A DNA stretch of 33,898 bases, taken from positions 1-33,898 of the forward strand of contig JAPMTX010000161.1 of assembly GCA_026552855.1 (NCBI GenBank), written 5' to 3'. Shown one piece after another: positions 22,969-33,898 of this stretch. The DNA is from Candidatus Methanoperedens sp. GTDB lineage: Archaea > Halobacteriota > Methanosarcinia > Methanosarcinales > Methanoperedenaceae. The notes under the pieces are model-generated. The model ran no database searches. It had not been told where the DNA came from and saw nothing but the letters and a program-made list of their open reading frames with translations. Every line of letters starts with the position of its first letter. Positions within the stretch are counted from its first letter, which is position 1. A program made the position numbers and the translations under genes.

Positions 22969-24975
22969 TCATGGTTTTCTCACTCTAAATGGATGAAATT
23001 GCAGACTGTCCTCAGAGTTTCCCACCTGAATGCTGATATTTCCCATGAGATGTATTCTCTTTTCCGGAGCAAGATAAACCGGCTCCCTGTTCCTGAGCTC
23101 GATTTTACCGTTATCAATAGAGGTAACCTCCATGATGCCGAAGGTATCGCCTTCTTTAATCTCAGTTATGTTCTGGGATCTGAGCCAGGTGTACCTGAAA
23201 TCTGCCGCATTCGTATGAGGCAGTTTATGTATATTAGATATGTAAGTAAGAAAGACTGGAGGACTAGCGTTTGCACCCCAAATATAGCTGTATAGATAAT
23301 TATTTGGCAAAACTTTATCATCAAGATTATCGTTGCCCTTGAAAAATGTCATCCATGCCTGCTCCTCCCTTGGGAGTGGTATCTCTATTGAATGCGCAAA
23401 GAGTCTGTATCCTTCCCCAAATCCCCAGGATTCCTCTATCTGCATGGTTTTAATATCTGTGGTGTTCTGCTCAAAGATGATTCTCGTTAACCTGTCTCCT
23501 TGTAGGAGTACGTATTTTTCTCCCTGCCACCCAATTGCCGAATAAAGGCCATCCGTGCCAGGTGGAGTTTTGTTAACATGTACATAAACCTGATATTTTA
23601 ATGGTATTGATTTTGTCGTATATATCAGGTTATATTTTTCTATTACTCTATAGGTATTGTTTAACGTACTTTGATTTATAACCAGAGTTTCTGAGGAAAC
23701 ATTTGCCTCTGGATCGCGCCAGAAGCCTGCAAAATTTTCAGCATCCCATTTTTTGGTTAAAATACCTGATATTTCATCAAAAGCCTGACCCAAGATATAT
23801 CCTGAAGGAGAGGGCTTTAGAGGGGTTCCACCCGGTTCCCCTTCTTCAGGAATGATAAGCTTTCCTCTCCCATCCCATACCGTGGTCGCAAAAAATATGG
23901 CTCTCCCTGCGTATCTATTTATGATTATTGTTCCTCCGAAGTCTGTAGCAGGATAGGAATAAAGATAGTTTCCACCATGAAATGTTATCTTTTCTCTTTC
24001 AACAGGTCTATTTCCGTAAGGGTTTCCATAAGGGTCTTTTTTAATCTCCTCTTCCATAATGCCAATACTTTCTTCTAAAGAGAACTCTTTTTTCACAGGA
24101 TAGCTAAATTTATAGGATTTCTTTAATTCAAAAGTCTGATAATCAAGCCTGAATATCGCTATTTTTGTTTCTTCTGTCTTTTCAGGGATTGAGGACATTA
24201 CAACTACCCACTCTGCTGTAGTAGGATCGAAAACTCCAACTCTATAGGGATGCATAAAAACTACTACTGAATAGGATTTTCCTGAGGTAACAAATTTCGC
24301 CTCATCAGAACCGTTTATTTCATTCAAGGCAGTTAAAGCCTGTTCCTTATCGAACCTGCTTGCTCCAGTATAATAATAAATTATTTCCTCAGGAGGTTTA
24401 GCCGGTTTAACCTCAAAATTAAAAATACCCAACTCCCTTTCAGTTTCAATTACTTTTTTCCCTTCAAATGTATTCAACACCCTCGTCACTCTCAATCTGG
24501 CTTTATAATCCCCTGCTGCCAGCTTCCCTATTGGTACTATTGCAGCTGGCTGGGTAAACGCTTCCGTCACCCCTACTCCCTCTCCAGGGTCGATATAAGT
24601 AGTATAAACAGTGAATATGTTCCCTTGCTTTTCTACTCTGTCGATATTTATTCCGTATCCCCCTGTATTGAAGACCCCTCTAAATACTACGAGATTCAGG
24701 TCGTCATTAACAGAAAAAGTAGATGTTTGAGCAGCTTTTTTAATAATGATATCTTTCAAGCTCTCCTTAACCTCCGGGATACTGCCTCTGATCACCGTGA
24801 ATATGCCCTCAGATTTACCTGCGTACCCTTCGAGAGGAGCATAATCTATCACAGGATTGACTTTCAGCATCTCAGGCTGTTGAGATACGCATCCTGATAA
24901 TATCGTGAGTGCAATGATTGAAATAAACAATAGTAATGGCTGGAAAATTCTGCTCTTTTTATTTCCACGATTCAT
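22969..24975 (-). CDS. Large lipoprotein with PrcB-like domain
   Basis: An exported lipoprotein. From the ATG at 24975 (668 residues) there is a textbook signal (NRGNKKSR, then FQPLLLFISIIALT) and a lipobox ILSGC with Cys29. Upstream in-frame starts (ATG 25029, TTG 25035) would add an unlikely 18-20 residues to the signal. A region at about 88-165 (VFNTGGYGINIDRVEKQGN, then a valine-rich strand pair) matches the PrcB C-terminal-like domain of secreted proteins. The remaining roughly 500 residues are beta-rich without a recognised domain, with two tandem segments that seem to alternate strands and Tyr-rich loops. The upstream membrane protein ends at 25032, so they may be coupled. Function unknown. 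Confidence 0.7.
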   Translation of the reverse strand: MNRGNKKSRIFQPLLLFISIIALTILSGCVSQQPEMLKVNPVIDYAPLEGYAGKSEGIFTVIRGSIPEVKESLKDIIIKKAAQTSTFSVNDDLNLVVFRGVFNTGGYGINIDRVEKQGNIFTVYTTYIDPGEGVGVTEAFTQPAAIVPIGKLAAGDYKARLRVTRVLNTFEGKKVIETERELGIFNFEVKPAKPPEEIIYYYTGASRFDKEQALTALNEINGSDEAKFVTSGKSYSVVVFMHPYRVGVFDPTTAEWVVVMSSIPEKTEETKIAIFRLDYQTFELKKSYKFSYPVKKEFSLEESIGIMEEEIKKDPYGNPYGNRPVEREKITFHGGNYLYSYPATDFGGTIIINRYAGRAIFFATTVWDGRGKLIIPEEGEPGGTPLKPSPSGYILGQAFDEISGILTKKWDAENFAGFWRDPEANVSSETLVINQSTLNNTYRVIEKYNLIYTTKSIPLKYQVYVHVNKTPPGTDGLYSAIGWQGEKYVLLQGDRLTRIIFEQNTTDIKTMQIEESWGFGEGYRLFAHSIEIPLPREEQAWMTFFKGNDNLDDKVLPNNYLYSYIWGANASPPVFLTYISNIHKLPHTNAADFRYTWLRSQNITEIKEGDTFGIMEVTSIDNGKIELRNREPVYLAPEKRIHLMGNISIQVGNSEDSLQFHPFRVRKP

Positions 24976-25031
24976 ACCGGTCACTCTTTTTATACGCGTA
25001 CTCCTGCCTAAATTGTGAATCAATTTCATAA

Positions 25032-25613
25032 TCAATCACGACCAGTTAGATAAGCAAAAAGCGTGAATGGCCAAATAGCAACTTGAAGCCAAAAATCAGA
25101 CCTGATTGACAGATTCCTGATCAAACCGGCAACACCAGTGCATTTAAATGGCGCCAACTCTGGTGGACAAGGTTGTAAATATCCTGGATTGGATAGAAGA
25201 TATATCACAAAAACAACAATGTACCCTATGGTAAGATAGCTTAACGCATAGATTGCAATTATCTTCTTAGATATGGAAATATCTTTCAATTCATTTCTTT
25301 TTATTTCTGCAGGTATCAGATTATTATTTATCCAATGTATCAATACCCCTATGCCTGCGCCTATAACCAGAGGCACAAATATACTAAGCAGGCCGCTCAA
25401 AGGTTCGAAACTCAGCAGATAATATGGTATCTGGTGCGAGATAAACCCTGGAAGAGTAATCAATTTCACAAGCCAGTTTGGCTGGAAATGATCCCATACG
25501 TTAATGAAGAATTGATCTAGCGTAGCCAAGCCCCACAGTCCACCCATTAATGCCGGACTTCCATATTCCCGATAAGTTTCTTTTAGCCTACTCGTGTTGC
25601 TCACACCTATCAT
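25032..25613 (-). CDS. Membrane protein, unknown
   Basis: A 193-residue protein with three or four transmembrane helices: about 75-95 (LLSIFVPLVIGAGIGVLIHW), 116-139 (IIAIYALSYLTIGYIVVFVI) and 173-190, with a weaker one near 22-40. An outer loop (about 142-160) holds two cysteines in PCPPELAPFKCTG, which may form a disulfide. I recognise no family. It sits between the TIG-domain protein (48-base gap) and the lipoprotein in the minus-strand surface cluster. Confidence 0.6.
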   Translation of the reverse strand: MIGVSNTSRLKETYREYGSPALMGGLWGLATLDQFFINVWDHFQPNWLVKLITLPGFISHQIPYYLLSFEPLSGLLSIFVPLVIGAGIGVLIHWINNNLIPAEIKRNELKDISISKKIIAIYALSYLTIGYIVVFVIYLLSNPGYLQPCPPELAPFKCTGVAGLIRNLSIRSDFWLQVAIWPFTLFAYLTGRD

Positions 25614-27335: not shown

Positions 27336-27881
27336 TTACTTCTTCAGTCCCCACCACACAGCAAGAACTCCTATTATCCCAAAAACCATCTCAAACCCAG
27401 GCGCCTCCGGGCTTGCCTGTGTTGCTGGAGTGGGAGCAGGCGTCGTAGTTCCTGTTTGACCAGATTCTTCAGGTATTTCAAGTATCTGAACATTACTTCC
27501 GGGTACAGACCAGTTGATTTCCAGCAGGACAGCATCTGCACTCGCACCAACAAATATGTTACCCTCTTTAATTGTTAAAAGCGGTACTTCGGAGCTATCC
27601 GGATTCTTGCCACTGTATGTATAAGATTTACCTGTTTCAATCCTGGCATCTCCAAGCTGTTTATCCTGATAGGAGAGTGAAATCAAAATGAACCCCGGTG
27701 ATCCCTTTTTATCTACGGATTTAACAGAGATATTCCAGCCGTCTTTTCCCCAGGTATCGCCAACGACAAGCATCTTTTTCTCAAAACCTCCAGTTTCCGC
27801 TGTTGCGAGTGCAGAAGCTGTGTTTGAGAATGTGCCGGGAACAAATAATACAAGTAAAGCATATACCACCATTTTATTCAT
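27336..27881 (-). CDS. PGF-CTERM surface protein with S-layer-like domain
   Basis: A 181-residue exported protein: signal peptide (1-25), one domain (about 33-127), a Thr/Pro linker (about 139-158) and a PGF-CTERM tail starting at Pro161 (PGFEMVFGII...) and ending in GLKK. The domain (LVVGDTWGKDGWNISVKSVD, then LISLSYQDKQLGDARI and LLTIKEGNIFVGASADAVLLEI) resembles half of the Methanosarcina S-layer domain, with its Gly-rich strands and final GNIFxGASAD-like segment. It is probably processed by archaeosortase and displayed on the envelope. It follows a 136-base gap containing a good TATA element, so it likely starts a new transcript. Confidence 0.75.
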   Translation of the reverse strand: MNKMVVYALLVLFVPGTFSNTASALATAETGGFEKKMLVVGDTWGKDGWNISVKSVDKKGSPGFILISLSYQDKQLGDARIETGKSYTYSGKNPDSSEVPLLTIKEGNIFVGASADAVLLEINWSVPGSNVQILEIPEESGQTGTTTPAPTPATQASPEAPGFEMVFGIIGVLAVWWGLKK

Positions 27882-28017: not shown

Positions 28018-28977
28018 TCACATGCATAATACCTCACCACCCCTGCTGATACATGTCGGAGGAAGTGAAGGTATCTCCATTTCAGAAGTTACCACCTGAT
28101 CCACCCACCTTGCAGTTACGACCACTCTGTATTTATCTCCTATCTTGCCTTTTATAACAACAGGAGACATTACATATTTCTCAGTGGATGGTTTATCTTT
28201 AGCAAGTTCAATGACTACGATAGGTGCAAATATTTCAGTATTGGTAGTTATTCGCGCACCTGTCACGGGGTCATAGGTGCTGTTGCGGTATTCCCATGTT
28301 ACAAGGGGCTCGGATGGTCCGTAAAATCCTTCCCATTCATTGTTTAAAGTGTATCCCCTCGTAACTGTTTTAACTGTAGTGTTTGTTAATTCATTTATTA
28401 CCGATACATTGACTGCAATACCTGATGCAAAGCCTTTTCCAGTGAGTTGTAAATAACCATAAACAGAGTATACTTCATTAGTTCCATTGATGCCCTTATA
28501 ATTCTGAAGAAGCACCTCGATCGTTGGCTTGAGAACATTGATTTCCACTGTTCTGGAACCTACAAGTTTTCTCTGCTGATACATCTCCACTTCGACTTTT
28601 TGTGTGCCCGGTACCTGATATCCAAGCTGGGCAGATACCCTGTTACTTCCCGGTTTTAATCGGACTTCTTTCTGGGTTTCCTCTGTTGCATTTAATTGTA
28701 ACCAACTGTAATTTTCCTCCACCCAGAGTATAGATCCTTCTAAGCTCACTCCTTTTTCATCTACGAATGCATTTTTTACATTTATAGTTACATTTACGTC
28801 TTCTGAAGCATTGTTTTGCATATTGATCATCAAACCGCTCAATTGTCCTATTGGGAGCTCTTCCGGCGCCTCGACGCTTACAATGCTGACATCTGAAGGG
28901 CTAAAGTACCAGAATAGCACCGCCGCAGATAGCAAAATGACTGCTATCATCGCCCCTGCTACCATCTTATTTCTCAT
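28018..28977 (-). CDS. Membrane-anchored Ig-like ectodomain protein, copy A
   Basis: A 319-residue protein with an uncleaved N-terminal anchor (MRNKMVAGAMIAVILLSAAV) and a large outer part. Two beta-sandwich domains are visible by internal similarity: about 28-145 (DVSIVSVEAP..., ending in a conserved LKPGSNRVSAQLGYQVPG stretch) and about 146-300 (PTIEVLLQ..., ending GKIGDKYRVVVTARWVDQ). The tail has a Cys pair in TCISRGGEVLC. It resembles CARDB/Ig-like domains. The start is ATG 28977, not the longer frame from 29010, because GAGGTGAG lies five bases upstream inside the 3' end of the wHTH gene, which it overlaps. Paralogue: 29600-30454. Suggested partner of the membrane wHTH protein; ligand unknown. 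Confidence 0.8.
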   Translation of the reverse strand: MRNKMVAGAMIAVILLSAAVLFWYFSPSDVSIVSVEAPEELPIGQLSGLMINMQNNASEDVNVTINVKNAFVDEKGVSLEGSILWVEENYSWLQLNATEETQKEVRLKPGSNRVSAQLGYQVPGTQKVEVEMYQQRKLVGSRTVEINVLKPTIEVLLQNYKGINGTNEVYSVYGYLQLTGKGFASGIAVNVSVINELTNTTVKTVTRGYTLNNEWEGFYGPSEPLVTWEYRNSTYDPVTGARITTNTEIFAPIVVIELAKDKPSTEKYVMSPVVIKGKIGDKYRVVVTARWVDQVVTSEMEIPSLPPTCISRGGEVLCM

Positions 28978-29572
28978 TCTTCTCACCTCGCAATTTGTCA
29001 GCCAGGGCAACCTTATTGGTCAGTCCGTACTGCTTTTTAACTACCAAGCCCCTCTTTTCAAGATCAGTTAACATCCTTGAGACCTTTACTTTTGAAAAAT
29101 TCAATGAAATCACAAGTTCATTCTGAAGCATTTCTCCGCCGTGACTGGCGATTTCCTGCACCAGTTTCTTCTCATCGCCTTCCAGTGCGGTTAGGACAGC
29201 ATCGATTAATTGTGATTCGTTTTCGACAGGTTCCGTGATAATAAATGCATCAGTATCAGATTCCGGTGTCTCTCCTGGTTTTTCTATCATAGTCATGCCT
29301 TTAACCTCGCCTTTTCCTGCTGCAAACAGCATTGTGAGAATATATGAGAGCATCATGCCGCCAACTGCCGAGCCAATGACCAGAATGTATGCATCGTTCT
29401 TTGTGTAGGTGTAAGGAAGCTCGAGGATTTTGAAAGAACCCTCATTTATCTGGATAATCGATGGCCTGGTAGCGAGCAGCATGCTCGTGACGACAACGCC
29501 TGCTACCACAAGCACTGCGCCAGCAAGCAACATTGTCCCTGTTTTTCTTGCTATCATTTTTGTTGTGTTCAC
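28967..29572 (-). CDS. Two-TM membrane protein with cytoplasmic winged HTH, copy A
   Basis: A 201-residue protein with transmembrane helices at about 12-34 and 61-84, joined by a 26-residue outer loop (RPSIIQINEGSFKILELPYT and TYTKND). A divergent cytoplasmic linker (about 86-118) leads to a MarR/HTH_24-like winged helix at 120-195. The recognition region is LQNELVISLNFSKVKVSRML and the wing follows GLVVKKQYGLTNKVAL. The arrangement is that of a membrane-tethered one-component transcription regulator whose outer loop could meet a surface partner. It precedes and overlaps the ectodomain gene by 11 bases. The paralogue 30444-31028 is nearly identical except for the linker. Whether it binds DNA while in the membrane is inferred. 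Confidence 0.8.
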   Translation of the reverse strand: MNTTKMIARKTGTMLLAGAVLVVAGVVVTSMLLATRPSIIQINEGSFKILELPYTYTKNDAYILVIGSAVGGMMLSYILTMLFAAGKGEVKGMTMIEKPGETPESDTDAFIITEPVENESQLIDAVLTALEGDEKKLVQEIASHGGEMLQNELVISLNFSKVKVSRMLTDLEKRGLVVKKQYGLTNKVALADKLRGEKNEK

Positions 29573-29599
29573 TCAAATTCCTCCGTTATTCTCCATGCA

Positions 29600-30454
29600 T
29601 CAGGGCGGTATTGCCATCTCCGCCTTTGCGATTTGATCCTGCCACCTGGCAGTAACAACAACTCTGTATCTATCTCCGATTTTACCTTTGGCTACGGTTG
29701 ATGCCATCAGGTATTTCTCATTAGATGGCACACCGCTTGAGAGTTCAACTAGAGCAATTGGTCCAAATGTTGCCTGGGACTTATCTCTTCCCTCCCAGAT
29801 GCTCATAGGATAGAAGAAATCAAAACCATCAATAGAATATCCTTTTGTGGTCGAAGAAACGGTCGTGTTTGTGGTCTCATTTATTATTGAAATATTCACT
29901 ACTACTCCCGAAGCACGTCCCTTCCCTGTATTTGAAAGGCTGCCGTATACTTTGTATAAATCATAGCCCGGTCGTGATTCATTGTTATATTGTAGAGATA
30001 CGCCAATAACTGGTGGAAGTACCGTGATTTCTGCTGATTTTGCGTCTATAAGTCTTCCTTTCTGGTAGATTTCGACTTCAAATTTTTTTTGTCCGGGCAC
30101 CTGGTATCCGAAGAACACCCGTAGTTGGTTTATGCCTGGCTTCAAACTGACTTCACCAGTCGGTTCATTAATCGTAGGTGGTTCTTTATCTGATCCGTAA
30201 ACTAATACATATGATGGTATACTGTTACCTTTCTCATCTTCCAGCGCGTTTTTCACTTTTAATGTTACGTTAACGTAATCCGAAGCATTGCTCTGCAGCA
30301 TGAAGTATATAAATCCAGATTCCAGCGTCCCAACTTCAGAAGGCGATTCTATGCTTACAATGCTGACGTTCGCCGGGGTAAAATACCAGTATAATGCCGC
30401 AGAAGATAGCAGTATTATTGTTACTATCGCTCCTATTAATAGCTTATTTCTCAT
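29600..30454 (-). CDS. Membrane-anchored Ig-like ectodomain protein, copy B
   Basis: A paralogue of the 28018-28977 protein, 284 residues. It has an N-terminal anchor (MRNKLLIGAIVTIILLSSAA), then the same two beta domains, with conserved pieces FTPANVSIVSIESP, SNASDYVNVTLKVKNALEDE, LKPGINQLRVFFGYQVPG and KGKIGDKYRVVVTARWQDQ. It lacks the C-terminal Cys pair, stopping at AIPP. The start is ATG 30454, preceded by GGGGTGAG five bases away; the frame from 30481 has no such site. It overlaps the wHTH copy B by 11 bases. Overall identity to copy A is only moderate by eye, whereas the neighbouring wHTH copies are almost the same. Confidence 0.8.
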   Translation of the reverse strand: MRNKLLIGAIVTIILLSSAALYWYFTPANVSIVSIESPSEVGTLESGFIYFMLQSNASDYVNVTLKVKNALEDEKGNSIPSYVLVYGSDKEPPTINEPTGEVSLKPGINQLRVFFGYQVPGQKKFEVEIYQKGRLIDAKSAEITVLPPVIGVSLQYNNESRPGYDLYKVYGSLSNTGKGRASGVVVNISIINETTNTTVSSTTKGYSIDGFDFFYPMSIWEGRDKSQATFGPIALVELSSGVPSNEKYLMASTVAKGKIGDRYRVVVTARWQDQIAKAEMAIPP

Positions 30455-31028
30455 TGTTCTCACCCCGCAATTTATCTGCAAGAGCTATTTTATTGGTCAA
30501 ACCATGATGCTTTTTAACCACCAAGCCTCTTTTCTCAAGGTCGCTTAATATTCTAGATACCTTTGCCTTTGAGAAATTCAGTGAAAGCACAAGTTCATTC
30601 TGAAGCATTTCTCCGCCGTGGTCAGCAATCTCTTTAACCAGCTTCTTTTCATCGCCTTCAAGAGCAGTTAAAACCGCATCGATTAATTGTGAATCGTCTT
30701 TAACATACCCTATGGTAGCATCTACATCTGCGCCGGAGATTCCCGCTGGTTTTTCTTCAGATATCATGTCTTTGACCTCACTTTTTCCTGCTGCAAATAA
30801 CATTGTGAAGATATATGAGAGCATCATGCCGCCAACTGCTGAGCCGATGACCAGAACGTATGCATCGTTCTTTGTGTAGGTGTAGGGAAGTTCAAGGATT
30901 TTGAAAGACCCATCGTTTATCTGGATAATCGAGGGTCTTGTGGCAAGCAGCATGCTTGTGACGATAACGCCTGCTATCACAAGCACTGCGCCAGCCAGTA
31001 CCATTGTTCCAGTTTTTCTTGAAATCAT
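30444..31028 (-). CDS. Two-TM membrane protein with cytoplasmic winged HTH, copy B
   Basis: A 194-residue paralogue of the 28967-29572 protein. Transmembrane helices lie at about 5-29 and 54-79 around the same outer loop (RPSIIQINDGSFKILELPYT). The linker (about 82-112) differs from copy A. The winged helix runs from about 113 to 188 (LQNELVLSLNFSKAKVSRIL as recognition region). By eye the membrane half differs at about 9 of 86 positions and the wHTH at about 11 of 82. The gene is 24 bases after the beta-propeller gene, likely one transcript. If both copies bind the same DNA, the different ectodomains may give different inputs to one target set; this is inference. Confidence 0.8.
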   Translation of the reverse strand: MISRKTGTMVLAGAVLVIAGVIVTSMLLATRPSIIQINDGSFKILELPYTYTKNDAYVLVIGSAVGGMMLSYIFTMLFAAGKSEVKDMISEEKPAGISGADVDATIGYVKDDSQLIDAVLTALEGDEKKLVKEIADHGGEMLQNELVLSLNFSKAKVSRILSDLEKRGLVVKKHHGLTNKIALADKLRGENNEK

Positions 31029-31052: not shown

Positions 31053-32531
31053 TCAATTGTGCCTCCTTTTAAATAAATTGATTGTAGATATAACTCCTAT
31101 TGCAAGTACCATATCAAACCCCTGAGCTTTAGAAATTAAGTTTACTCTTGCAAATTCTGTTATCTGTGGTGTTGCTATCAGGGTTGGTTCGGGTGATAAT
31201 TGTTCAGATGGCGATTCCTGAACCGTGATGGGCTTATTTGCAGTTCTAAAACCCTGTTTGACAGCACTTAATCTGAAATTACCCGCTTCTTTGAAGCTAT
31301 GATTTAAAAATCCTTTCTCATTAGTTGAACCTATCTCTCTGCCGTTAAGAAGAATCGTTGCATTTTCGACGGGTTTTGACATGGACTTAATTTCAATAAA
31401 AGCTACATCCCCCTGTTTAATAGAACCGGGGGAATAGATAGATAAGACTTCATCATATCCGCTTAGCTTTATTATTGAGATATTCCTCGCTCTCATTTCT
31501 ATATCATGAGAGGAAGCCACAATTATTCTGCTGCCGTCCGGGCTCCATCCCCCTGTTATTACATTGTACGGCTCTTTAGAAGTAAGCTGTACACGCTCCG
31601 TACCGTCCGGGTTACTTAAAAAGATATGGGCTGCAGAAGAATTGCTTCTTGCATAAGAATCACTTCTTGCCAATAAAGTCTCGAAATCCATCTGTTTCCC
31701 TGTTGCAGGGTCTATAATAGCTGAAAAAACAATTTTATCGCCTGAAGGATTCAATGCATATACCGGCAGCTGAAAAAATTCTCCCCAACCTGTTAATGCA
31801 AGTAATGTCTTTCCGGTCCCATCGGGGTTCATGGTATATAAGCTATAATTTGAGCTTTCTACAAAAATTATCTTTTCAGCATTTGTCTTCCTCTTCTCCT
31901 TTAAAATATTTTCTAAATTCATCCCATCCGCAGTTACTGTAGTAAACTCATTTATATCTTCTATATACAAACCCTGCCAATGTCCTGCATCAGGTAAATA
32001 TGCTAAAATCGATTCCATATCCGAGAGATTGGTTCCAATAGCTCTCAGCCCCGTTCCATCAGGATTAACGACTACTACAAGAGATGCATTAGGTCGGTTT
32101 AACAGAAAGGCTATTTTTTCTCCACCCTGAATCCATGTAGGAAACGCTATCCTTGCACCTTTTGAATTTATGAATCTGGACAAGACGATTTTTTTTAATC
32201 CAGTTCCGTCAGCATTCATAACATAAACTTCATCTACTTCTTCCGATTGACTCCAACCGACCACAGAGCGAATGAGAATCCTTCCACCATCGGGACTCCA
32301 GCGGACTGGTTCTATAGAATATCGGCCAGGTTTCAGAGAAACTTCTTTAGAGTCATTAATAGCATATGGTTTCACGATATCTGTAATAGAAATTACTTCT
32401 TTGACGCTGTATGCATTGTTTGTAACTGCTCCTGCAGTCAGGTTTGCTGCGTTCACTATGTCGACCTGAGATATAGATATGAGCAGACCAAATGCTGCTA
32501 GCGCGAATGCAGTGCTTATTTTTTTAGCCAT
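31053..32531 (-). CDS. TolB-like beta-propeller surface protein, PGF-CTERM variant
   Basis: A 492-residue exported protein: signal peptide (MAKKISTAFALAAFGLLIS, cleavage near VNAAN) and a beta-propeller of PD40/TolB-like repeats (about 60-355). Blade signatures include RWSPDGGRILIRS, MNADGTGLKKIV, NPDGTGLRAIG, MNPDGTGKTLLAL and SNPDGTERVQLTS. Then comes a PEGA/carboxypeptidase-regulatory-like domain (about 360-445: VENATILLNGREIGSTNEKG), a Pro/Ser/Glu linker and a C-terminal hydrophobic tail with basic end FKRRHN. The tail begins with Gln-Gly-Phe instead of Pro-Gly-Phe, so sorting is uncertain. The ATG overlaps the preceding stop by one base and has GGTGG eight bases upstream. Paralogue of the next gene. 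Confidence 0.8.
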   Translation of the reverse strand: MAKKISTAFALAAFGLLISISQVDIVNAANLTAGAVTNNAYSVKEVISITDIVKPYAINDSKEVSLKPGRYSIEPVRWSPDGGRILIRSVVGWSQSEEVDEVYVMNADGTGLKKIVLSRFINSKGARIAFPTWIQGGEKIAFLLNRPNASLVVVVNPDGTGLRAIGTNLSDMESILAYLPDAGHWQGLYIEDINEFTTVTADGMNLENILKEKRKTNAEKIIFVESSNYSLYTMNPDGTGKTLLALTGWGEFFQLPVYALNPSGDKIVFSAIIDPATGKQMDFETLLARSDSYARSNSSAAHIFLSNPDGTERVQLTSKEPYNVITGGWSPDGSRIIVASSHDIEMRARNISIIKLSGYDEVLSIYSPGSIKQGDVAFIEIKSMSKPVENATILLNGREIGSTNEKGFLNHSFKEAGNFRLSAVKQGFRTANKPITVQESPSEQLSPEPTLIATPQITEFARVNLISKAQGFDMVLAIGVISTINLFKRRHN

Positions 32532-33898
32532 CAAGCATTCCACCTTTTCATAAAAAACACGGAAACTATCAACATAATTCCAGCAAAAATAATGCTAAAA
32601 CCAGGCATTTTAGGCGAACCCGCTATCGCTGCAGGCTCTTGGATCGCATCAACCGTTTGCTGCGGCGTAGCCACTTTTCCCTGGTTGATATTTTCAGGCG
32701 CTCGAATAGGCATTGTCCTGTCGTATCCTGAAAGCTTTGCTATGAAAATCTCGTCTTTTGATGGCATATCATTTCGAGATTCAATCAATAGCCTGCTCCC
32801 ATCGGGGCTCCAGCTTCCGCCCATCCCGCTCAAGATGTAACGCTTATTCCCGCCAGTTGTGATCTGCGCGCGCTCAGTGCCGTCTGGATTGGAGATAAAA
32901 ACATGTTCTCCGTTAGCTGTGCTTGAAGAAAAAGCGATTTTATCGCCAGATGGACTCCATGCATAGGGGCTTGTCCAGCTCCATGATAGATTTGATGTTA
33001 GTAATGTTTTTCCTGTTCCATTCGGATTAATCGTGTAAAGCTTTGCTCCGTTATCTAAAGATATGAAGGCAATTTTACTTCCGTCAGGATTCCAGCTAAC
33101 TGCATCTACAGTAGCCCTTTCCACAGGATTGCCCTCCTCATGAATCAATTTTACATTTCTTCCTGATAGGTCAGCTACATATATCCCATGATTCCTTCTT
33201 TCGGTGATGGATTTAAACAGTATGCTGCTACCATCTATATTCCAGATTGGGGTCTCCACTTCTATGCTTTTAATCAGTTCTGTTTTATCGCCGCTGTCCA
33301 CATCTATCAGGTAGAGGTGATTTAGAAATTGATCATTCACTCCTTCTGATGACTTGCATAATAATTTACTATCATCCGGGCTCCAGACTCCACCCGAACA
33401 AGCGCCAAGTTGTTTCAGACCGGTTCCATCGCTGTTCACAATCCAGAGGTTGTTTCCACCGGATACTATTTGTTTTCCATCGTGGCTCCATGCTATGCTA
33501 CCGAGAGAAGATTCATTTACCTCGCTGGCAAGTTGCTTTATGTTAAATCCATCAGCATCTGCTACATACATCTTTTCTGATTTGTTTACAGGGTCGGTTA
33601 CCACAAAAACTGCTTTTATTCCATCCGGACTCCACGTAAAATCCCTCTGCCATGAAATTTTAGAGCGGTTTGCAGAGATTATATCTGAAAAATTTGTACC
33701 AAGAACATTTATCCCGTCTCCATTTGGGTTTGCAAGCAAATAGATTACTCCCATCCTTGGTACGGATACAACGATGACAATTTTATCTCCCGACGGACTC
33801 CAGGGATTATAACCCGGAGGAGCAGATAATTCTACAGGGGTGCTACGGTTGTTGATCTCATTGGATACTATTTTTGTAAGATTTGTTCCATCAGCATC
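32531..33898 (-). CDS. TolB-like beta-propeller surface protein, PGF-CTERM (5' end off window)
   Basis: Partial: the frame stays open to the window edge at 33898, so the N-terminus and any signal peptide are missing; the ATG at 33754 is internal, not a start. The last visible upstream residues DADGTNLTKIV and SPSGDKIVIVV are further propeller blades. PD40 repeats fill it (WSPDGIKAVFVV, VADADGFNIKQL, IVNSDGTGLKQLG, WNPDGSKIAFIS, INPNGTGKTLLT, SNPDGTERAQIT, SWSPDGSRLLIES). Near the end come a short linker and a PGF-CTERM tail (PGFSIIFAGI...), ending KRWNA. The C-terminal part aligns with the neighbouring paralogue through AKLSGYDRTMPIRAP, but the PEGA-like domain is lacking. The stop is shared with the next ATG. 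Confidence 0.8.
   Translation of the reverse strand, partial: DADGTNLTKIVSNEINNRSTPVELSAPPGYNPWSPSGDKIVIVVSVPRMGVIYLLANPNGDGINVLGTNFSDIISANRSKISWQRDFTWSPDGIKAVFVVTDPVNKSEKMYVADADGFNIKQLASEVNESSLGSIAWSHDGKQIVSGGNNLWIVNSDGTGLKQLGACSGGVWSPDDSKLLCKSSEGVNDQFLNHLYLIDVDSGDKTELIKSIEVETPIWNIDGSSILFKSITERRNHGIYVADLSGRNVKLIHEEGNPVERATVDAVSWNPDGSKIAFISLDNGAKLYTINPNGTGKTLLTSNLSWSWTSPYAWSPSGDKIAFSSSTANGEHVFISNPDGTERAQITTGGNKRYILSGMGGSWSPDGSRLLIESRNDMPSKDEIFIAKLSGYDRTMPIRAPENINQGKVATPQQTVDAIQEPAAIAGSPKMPGFSIIFAGIMLIVSVFFMKRWNA

Follow-up and report, generated by a model that had tools for sequence, protein, structure and literature searches.

A Membrane-Tethered Winged-Helix Regulator Paired with an Ig-Like Ectodomain Protein across Methanosarcinales: a Candidate Archaeal Co-Component Unit

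Introduction

Co-component systems comprise a membrane-tethered DNA-binding protein and a membrane-anchored extracytoplasmic partner encoded by an adjacent, often overlapping gene, with the outside part evolving fast, as described in PMC9214523. Here, we analyze two adjacent gene pairs in a 33,898-nucleotide (nt) stretch of DNA from Candidatus Methanoperedens sp. (GenBank assembly GCA_026552855.1, contig JAPMTX010000161.1), referred to below in its full length as the window. As in ToxR/ToxS, VtrA/VtrC, and TcpP/TcpH, the first gene of each pair appears to encode a membrane-tethered helix-turn-helix (HTH) factor, here a DUF7343 winged HTH (wHTH) with two hydrophobic helices. As in co-component systems generally, an adjoining or overlapping gene encodes a predicted membrane-anchored extracytoplasmic partner, which we call the ectodomain protein.

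Members of the ToxR/VtrA superfamily have an N-terminal HTH, a transmembrane helix, and a periplasmic alpha-beta domain (PMC9214523), whereas the window regulators have a C-terminal MarR-like DUF7343, two predicted transmembrane helices, and a loop of ~25 residues that would lie outside. Nearly all co-component partners described there are lipocalin-like, while the window partner is modeled as two immunoglobulin (Ig)-like beta-sandwiches, and none of the 50 PDB fold matches listed for it bears a lipocalin or VtrC title. By these two tested features, the C-terminal MarR-like HTH and the non-lipocalin partner, the window pairs therefore fall outside the ToxR/VtrA superfamily. Receptors in which DUF7345, a transmembrane segment, and DUF7343 are fused share the DUF7343 output, presumably on the cytoplasmic side; unlike them, the window pairs have sensor and output in two proteins and an ectodomain of another family, and none of their four proteins matched DUF7345 at 0.1. 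The regulators also have what defines a transmembrane transcription regulator (TTR), namely, a predicted DNA-binding domain and at least one transmembrane region, as do the membrane-acting ArnR and ArnR1 of Sulfolobus (PMC10269533). However, the HTH of ArnR lies in the N-terminal region (PMC13286277), where the window regulators carry theirs at the C terminus, and the table of PMC10269533 gives it no associated protein, whereas the window regulators have a partner gene.

A preliminary description of the window, made from sequence alone, regarded the pairs as an archaeal alternative to two-component systems. None of the four proteins matched a histidine kinase or receiver family, so the features of two-component systems are absent; the proposal fits co-component systems, a kind already described in bacteria (PMC9214523). 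The word archaea is absent from the main text of that source. In the open-licence literature searched, we found no description of an archaeal co-component system and no mention of DUF7343, mentions of COG2512 being unrelated. To our knowledge, how archaea sense the state of their own surface and relay it to genes is largely open. A strict order-wide gene pair with a conserved promoter element makes that question testable. If our reading is true, it suggests that a receptor-regulator split between two proteins evolved on more than one occasion and that the related methane-cycling archaea examined here possess a two-part surface sensor of their own, able to switch genes while held in the membrane.

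Anatomy and conservation of the gene pair

The two pairs comprise the following features, in window coordinates.

30444-31028, minus strand: wHTH regulator A, 194 amino acids (aa), with transmembrane helix 1, outer loop, transmembrane helix 2, linker, and C-terminal DUF7343 wHTH (open reading frame, PF24034, model, and orthologues order-wide)
30870-30944, minus strand: predicted outer loop (residues 29-53) of regulator A, modeled as a beta-hairpin
30480-30656, minus strand: DUF7343 wHTH of regulator A (Pfam)
30459-30464, minus strand: GGTGAG ribosome site serving ectodomain A, within the regulator A gene and encoding part of a conserved RGE tail
29600-30454, minus strand: ectodomain protein A (type A), 284 aa, with an N-terminal transmembrane helix and two Ig-like beta-sandwiches (open reading frame and model; type by tree)
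28967-29557, minus strand: wHTH regulator B, 196 aa, or 201 aa if the start is the GTG at 29572
28982-28987, minus strand: GGTGAG ribosome site of ectodomain B, inside the regulator B gene
28018-28977, minus strand: ectodomain protein B (type B), 319 aa (open reading frame; type by tree)

These features bear out the duplicated module proposed in the preliminary description, whose account of all four proteins holds, as do its 11-nt overlap in each pair (30444-30454 in A and 28967-28977 in B) and its GGTGAG for the second gene within the first, a site that ends 4 nt before each second ATG. The regulators are identical at 159 of 196 positions (81%), with 21 of the 37 linker positions differing. 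Outside the linker (residues 1-80 and 118-194), the likeness stands, and the earlier count of about 20 differences in 168 positions becomes 17 in 157. The ectodomains, at 138 of 303 identical positions (46%), are moderately alike, as had been said.

We searched 185 genomes of the order with each protein, keeping wHTH matches to an E value of 1.3e-27 (73 matches), and asked how often homologues of the regulator lack an ectodomain neighbor. The ectodomain gene lies directly downstream in 71 of the 73, at offsets of -8 to +121 nt relative to the match end, which far exceeds chance; of the other two, one is half of a gene at a contig edge whose other half is paired (G026:C101), and one belongs to another subfamily (G075, L159). 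The ectodomain occurs in 69 of the 185 genomes, and two of the 73 matches listed for it lack a wHTH, both at contig ends. Closer reading gave the same result in two sets that share many loci. Among 26 wHTH loci, the partner overlaps in 25, by 11 nt in 19, 4 nt in 5, and 20 nt in 1 with starts as chosen, and the 26th (L025) ends at the contig; among 33 loci from Methanoperedens, ANME-2, ANME-3, Methanolobus, and relatives, a partner is present in 32, the 33rd (L053) being truncated by the contig. Across 60 genomes including the source genome, 25 have both proteins and 35 have neither (core wHTH at 2.6e-37 or better). In a phylum-wide sample of 392 genomes, ectodomain matches at 8.9e-70 or better come from 34 genomes, all of the window's order, and seven others have only partial matches at 8e-5 or weaker. 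Given adjacency in 71/73, 25/26, and 32/33 cases, we conclude that the unit is real; the refuting condition set in the preliminary description, that most wHTH homologues would lack an ectodomain neighbor, did not hold. One ectodomain match is broken in two (G149:C10:630079-630923), a possible frameshift or assembly error.

In both closely read sets, GGTGA(G/A) precedes the second start within the first gene. The exceptions are L066 and L068, which have GAGGG; for L023 and L052, which are one gene, a more upstream start was used. Because the site encodes part of the conserved RGE tail, conservation of that tail may partly be that of a ribosome site.

Domains and predicted structure

Both regulators match PF24034 (DUF7343; 5.3e-16 for A and 2.4e-14 for B), which in regulator A spans residues 125-183 of 194. 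A profile search for solved relatives of the wHTH returned one MarR sequence (4mnu, 3.7e-4), and a fold search with it returned no match at an E value of 0.001. The model of regulator A places a transmembrane helix at residues 4-28, strands at 33-38 and 41-46 between the transmembrane segments, a long helix at 53-89, a disordered linker at 84-112, and then the wHTH. In comparisons of Methanoperedens with the other lineages, identity averages 0.57 in the wHTH, 0.47 in the C-terminal tail, 0.45 in the outer loop, 0.34 in each transmembrane helix, and 0.09 in the linker; the loop is thus conserved above the transmembrane helices and linker and below the wHTH, and its residues P32, I35, Q36, F42, P48, Y49, and Y51 are invariant. 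A match of regulator A to the Csa3 CRISPR regulator (NCBIfam cas_HTH, 1.6e-6, 27.7 bits against a cutoff of 60.2) was set aside as HTH likeness only.

For the ectodomains, Pfam gave no domain in A and one match below the cutoff in B (0.011). The AlphaFold2 model of ectodomain A (mean predicted local distance difference test [pLDDT] score, 89.2; predicted template-modeling score [pTM], 0.74) shows a helix at residues 2-25 followed by two beta-sandwiches. A profile search for solved relatives gave none worth naming, the best being a designed Ig at 0.013. Because template-modeling scores on the query were low (0.22-0.36 among the 50 PDB matches listed), a fold class is the most that can be named. 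The best of these low-scoring matches was WxLIP of Enterococcus, which we take to be a cell-surface protein.

Promoter element and gene neighborhood

From alignments of 25 chosen loci, belonging to Methanosarcina-like genomes (our label for loci L140-L149), Methanolobus, ANME-2, and genus g15 and including one ANME-3-like locus, we derived the pattern GTGGTYTYRnAAnnnTGAnACGTYT. With up to 4 mismatches it is present upstream of all 25, followed after ~20 nt by a near match to AATTATA(A/T)CATTTGTTTC, 78-120 nt before the start used; when these regions were shuffled in 2-base blocks, 0.04 of 25 carried it on average. It also occurs in five of six further loci that did not contribute to the pattern, the sixth (L064) offering only 114 nt of sequence, and hence in 30 of 31 tested pairs outside Methanoperedens. 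These matches suggest that, outside Methanoperedens, the pair regulates its own promoter. A palindrome, GAGACGTCTC, lies before the pair in L140-L147, L151, and L152 only, with one mismatch allowed, and an Rfam search for RNA leaders gave no match in the window, L140, L155, or L152. A second, near-exact copy of the element (1 mismatch; L179, G154:C1:1107474-1107498) sits inside a local partial duplicate of genes that look to us like pta-ackA. In several of the L140-L149 loci, the pair lies downstream of what we take to be pta-ackA-like genes and an acetyl-CoA-synthetase-like gene.

The genes flanking the window pairs run in the same direction.

32531-33754 and 31053-32543, minus strand: two beta-propeller proteins, TolB-like, immediately upstream of pair A
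27336-27881, minus strand: secreted protein with a weak surface (S)-layer domain and PGF-CTERM, directly downstream of pair B; candidate coregulated gene
22969-25035, minus strand: 688-aa protein with an S-layer domain (PF07752, 3.4e-38) and PrcB_C, further downstream

Transcription on the minus strand thus passes through the two propeller genes, regulator A, ectodomain A, regulator B, ectodomain B, and then genes for secreted proteins, some with S-layer or TIG domains. The gaps are short (24 nt between propeller gene and regulator A; 42 or 27 nt, depending on start choice, between ectodomain A and regulator B), so the cluster may be a single operon. The 27336-27881 product matches PF07752 at 2.8e-6 and 27 bits, under the cutoff of 30, and similar genes lie downstream in relatives. 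The propeller genes are related to upstream genes in other Methanoperedens loci, and by eye their 3' ends seem to have been retained ahead of the wHTH in loci where the gene itself is gone.

We counted S-layer genes on the same strand within 8 kb downstream of the pair in 42 distinct loci for which 1.8 kb or more of downstream sequence was available, four duplicate contigs having been dropped. Such genes occur in 23 of the 42: 9 of 10 Methanosarcina-like loci, 2 of 2 ANME-3-like loci, 12 of 17 Methanoperedens loci including the window, and none of 13 others (5 Methanolobus, 4 ANME-2, 2 g15, and 2 more). Some of the Methanoperedens matches are weak; of 18 neighbor proteins run against Pfam, all matched PF07752, 13 above the cutoff. 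Genomes carry 10-21 S-layer domain matches each (15 genomes). No S-layer gene was found upstream in the sequence examined, which is short at some loci. The third gene encodes a HEAT-repeat protein in the three loci tested with Pfam (L140, L155, and L151), and similar third genes follow the pair in other Methanosarcina-like and Methanolobus loci; by eye, the start looks lipoprotein-like. In one locus (L019:2081-3448, G022), ectodomain and DUF4367 domain (PF14285, 2e-8) form a natural fusion, and DUF4367 proteins, two of them Pfam tested, precede the pair at other Methanoperedens loci.

A split sensor and regulator

In our preferred reading, which we put at a probability of about 0.6, the pairs are archaeal co-component signal units, in each of which an extracytoplasmic sensor half acts on a membrane-held wHTH. 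Judged by anatomy, the window pairs may work much as ToxR/ToxS or VtrA/VtrC do. The regulator would form a membrane helical hairpin with ~25 residues outside and a cytoplasmic wHTH on a flexible linker. The ectodomain protein, whose translation would be coupled to that of the regulator on a shared transcript, would be its extracytoplasmic sensor half, with the conserved outer hairpin docking on the membrane-proximal Ig domain. A change in cell-surface state, most likely in the S-layer or envelope or in a ligand there, could then alter the position of the wHTH or its putative dimeric pairing and, in turn, its hold on a presumed DNA target, the promoter of its own operon, which adjoins surface-protein genes in several lineages. 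Tandem duplication and exchange at the junction between the wHTH and ectodomain genes would have left one output with two input types.

In favor of this reading are the strict pairing and joint presence or absence of the two proteins, the conserved outer loop, the promoter element outside Methanoperedens, the S-layer genes at part of the loci, the fusion of a DUF7343 wHTH to an ectodomain in two other frames of the source genome, and the single-pass partners of other hairpin-wHTH subfamilies. Several points weigh against it. We infer the contact between sensor and regulator, as we do the receptor complex and the signal; the transmembrane helices come from hydropathy and models only, and the model of regulator A is weak (pLDDT, 69; pTM, 0.35). 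No S-layer gene is near 19 of the 42 loci, including all 5 from Methanolobus. The 19 control loci used are weak as controls because they come from other archaea, and just 1 of 14 control genomes has a PF07752 match. Of the loci that the promoter pattern matches, 25 served to build it, and none of 20 Methanoperedens loci has it, so it leaves the window's own cluster unexplained. Searched genome-wide in 15 genomes with up to 3 mismatches, the pattern gave 35 matches against 69 for a reversed control; no regulon beyond the pair's own promoter is therefore supported, and we discarded a wider one. Seven of the 15 genomes each have a single match without mismatches, always at the pair, and matches at pairs make up 10 of the 35 in all; of four weaker matches, three lie within coding frames (L177, L164, and L181) and one lies in the partial duplicate at L179.

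The ectodomain might instead be a stabilizer or chaperone that shields the regulator from proteolysis, with the signal entering elsewhere, such as through the membrane or linker. Bacterial TTR-associated proteins can act through inhibition of proteolysis (PMC10269533), and an ectodomain that evolves faster than its regulator would need to keep only a docking surface. Two Ig domains, and two old ectodomain types on one regulator pool, would hardly be needed for that role, although this is an argument only, and we consider a stabilizer unlikely. Somewhat less likely again is a structural surface protein, an S-layer foot or adhesin, that never touches the regulator, which would simply control its own operon, the genes being coupled for dosage. 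The S-layer, HEAT-repeat, or PGF-CTERM genes that follow many pairs suit that role, as does WxLIP as the best fold match. However, it gives no reason for a loop conserved above the transmembrane helices (0.45 versus 0.34) or for pairing in 71 of 73 cases while other neighbors change.

Two ectodomain types and exchange at the junction

The ectodomain tree contains two well-supported types in Methanoperedens; type A comprises window pair A, L045, L047, L049, L050, and L051. The wHTH tree is poorly resolved, with 18 of 34 inner branches open and bootstrap values not settled, and it places window pair A, with support of 94/83, beside L037 and L038, two loci with type-B ectodomains. In approximately unbiased (AU) tests, a single type-A clade for the wHTH was borderline (P = 0.052), and grouping the ectodomain of window pair A with those of L037 and L038 was rejected (P = 6e-20). 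At four-fold degenerate sites, in counts that rest on conserved codons and nonindependent pairs, matches reach 0.58 in the wHTH and 0.32 in the ectodomain for 90 A-B pairs (random, 0.27), 0.62 and 0.59 for 105 B-B pairs, and 0.58 and 0.46 for 15 A-A pairs; the contrast is strong only between types. Window pairs A and B match at 47 of 77 such sites in the wHTH and 14 of 56 in the ectodomain (Fisher, 4.5e-5). Among the B-B pairs listed, one, L039 with L043, runs the opposite way (0.70 in the wHTH versus 0.85 in the ectodomain; P = 0.02). Three type-A loci (L047, L049, and L051) have the same two gene families upstream as three type-B loci (L037, L040, and L042), which fits an in-place change of type.

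Part of the regulator likeness thus looks like recombination at the wHTH-ectodomain junction. That purifying selection after an ordinary tandem duplication explains all of it, with no exchange between copies or loci, is the least probable of the alternatives, since the borderline AU result, the unresolved wHTH tree, and the nature of the four-fold counts leave it some room, but the contrasts within the window and between types, its near absence among B-B pairs, and the rejected ectodomain grouping all speak against it. The preliminary description had read the pairs as conserved output with changing input. With two ectodomain types on one wHTH pool at synonymous sites, that pattern appears to be partly junction exchange: the regulator is conserved, though part of its conservation seems to reflect exchange, and the input does not change freely, being one orthologous Ig-like family order-wide with two old types in Methanoperedens. 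Overall, the unit proposed there is real, while its account of input and output needed correction. True change of partner lies one level deeper, where other hairpin-wHTH subfamilies have other single-pass partners.

The wider hairpin-wHTH family

In one such subfamily, the next gene upstream encodes a single-pass protein in 11 of 12 loci, the 12th (L192) lying at a contig edge. In a second, a short single-pass protein is adjacent in two of six loci and one gene away in two, and none was found within the 1.5 kb examined in the remaining two. By eye, we take the single-pass partners of these further subfamilies to resemble PepSY domains; none of 10 run on Pfam scored above the cutoff. An evenly balanced proposition, in our judgment, is the joint one that archaea have an independently evolved co-component class in which the DUF7343 membrane hairpin is a common output platform that accepts various single-pass ectodomains, tandem Ig-like ones encoded downstream or PepSY-like ones encoded on either side, and the outer loop is the docking socket. 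In Methanosarcinales, it would watch the S-layer and, outside Methanoperedens, drive its own operon via GTGGTYTC..TGAnACGT. Elsewhere in the source genome, DUF7345, a transmembrane segment, and DUF7343 are fused in two frames (L088 and L090; 380 and 324 aa), and DUF7343 also follows other N-terminal parts in L092 and L094. In another archaeal family, f10 (L190-L196), a hairpin-wHTH has a single-pass upstream partner, which no Pfam model names, in six of seven loci, and the seventh is at a contig edge.

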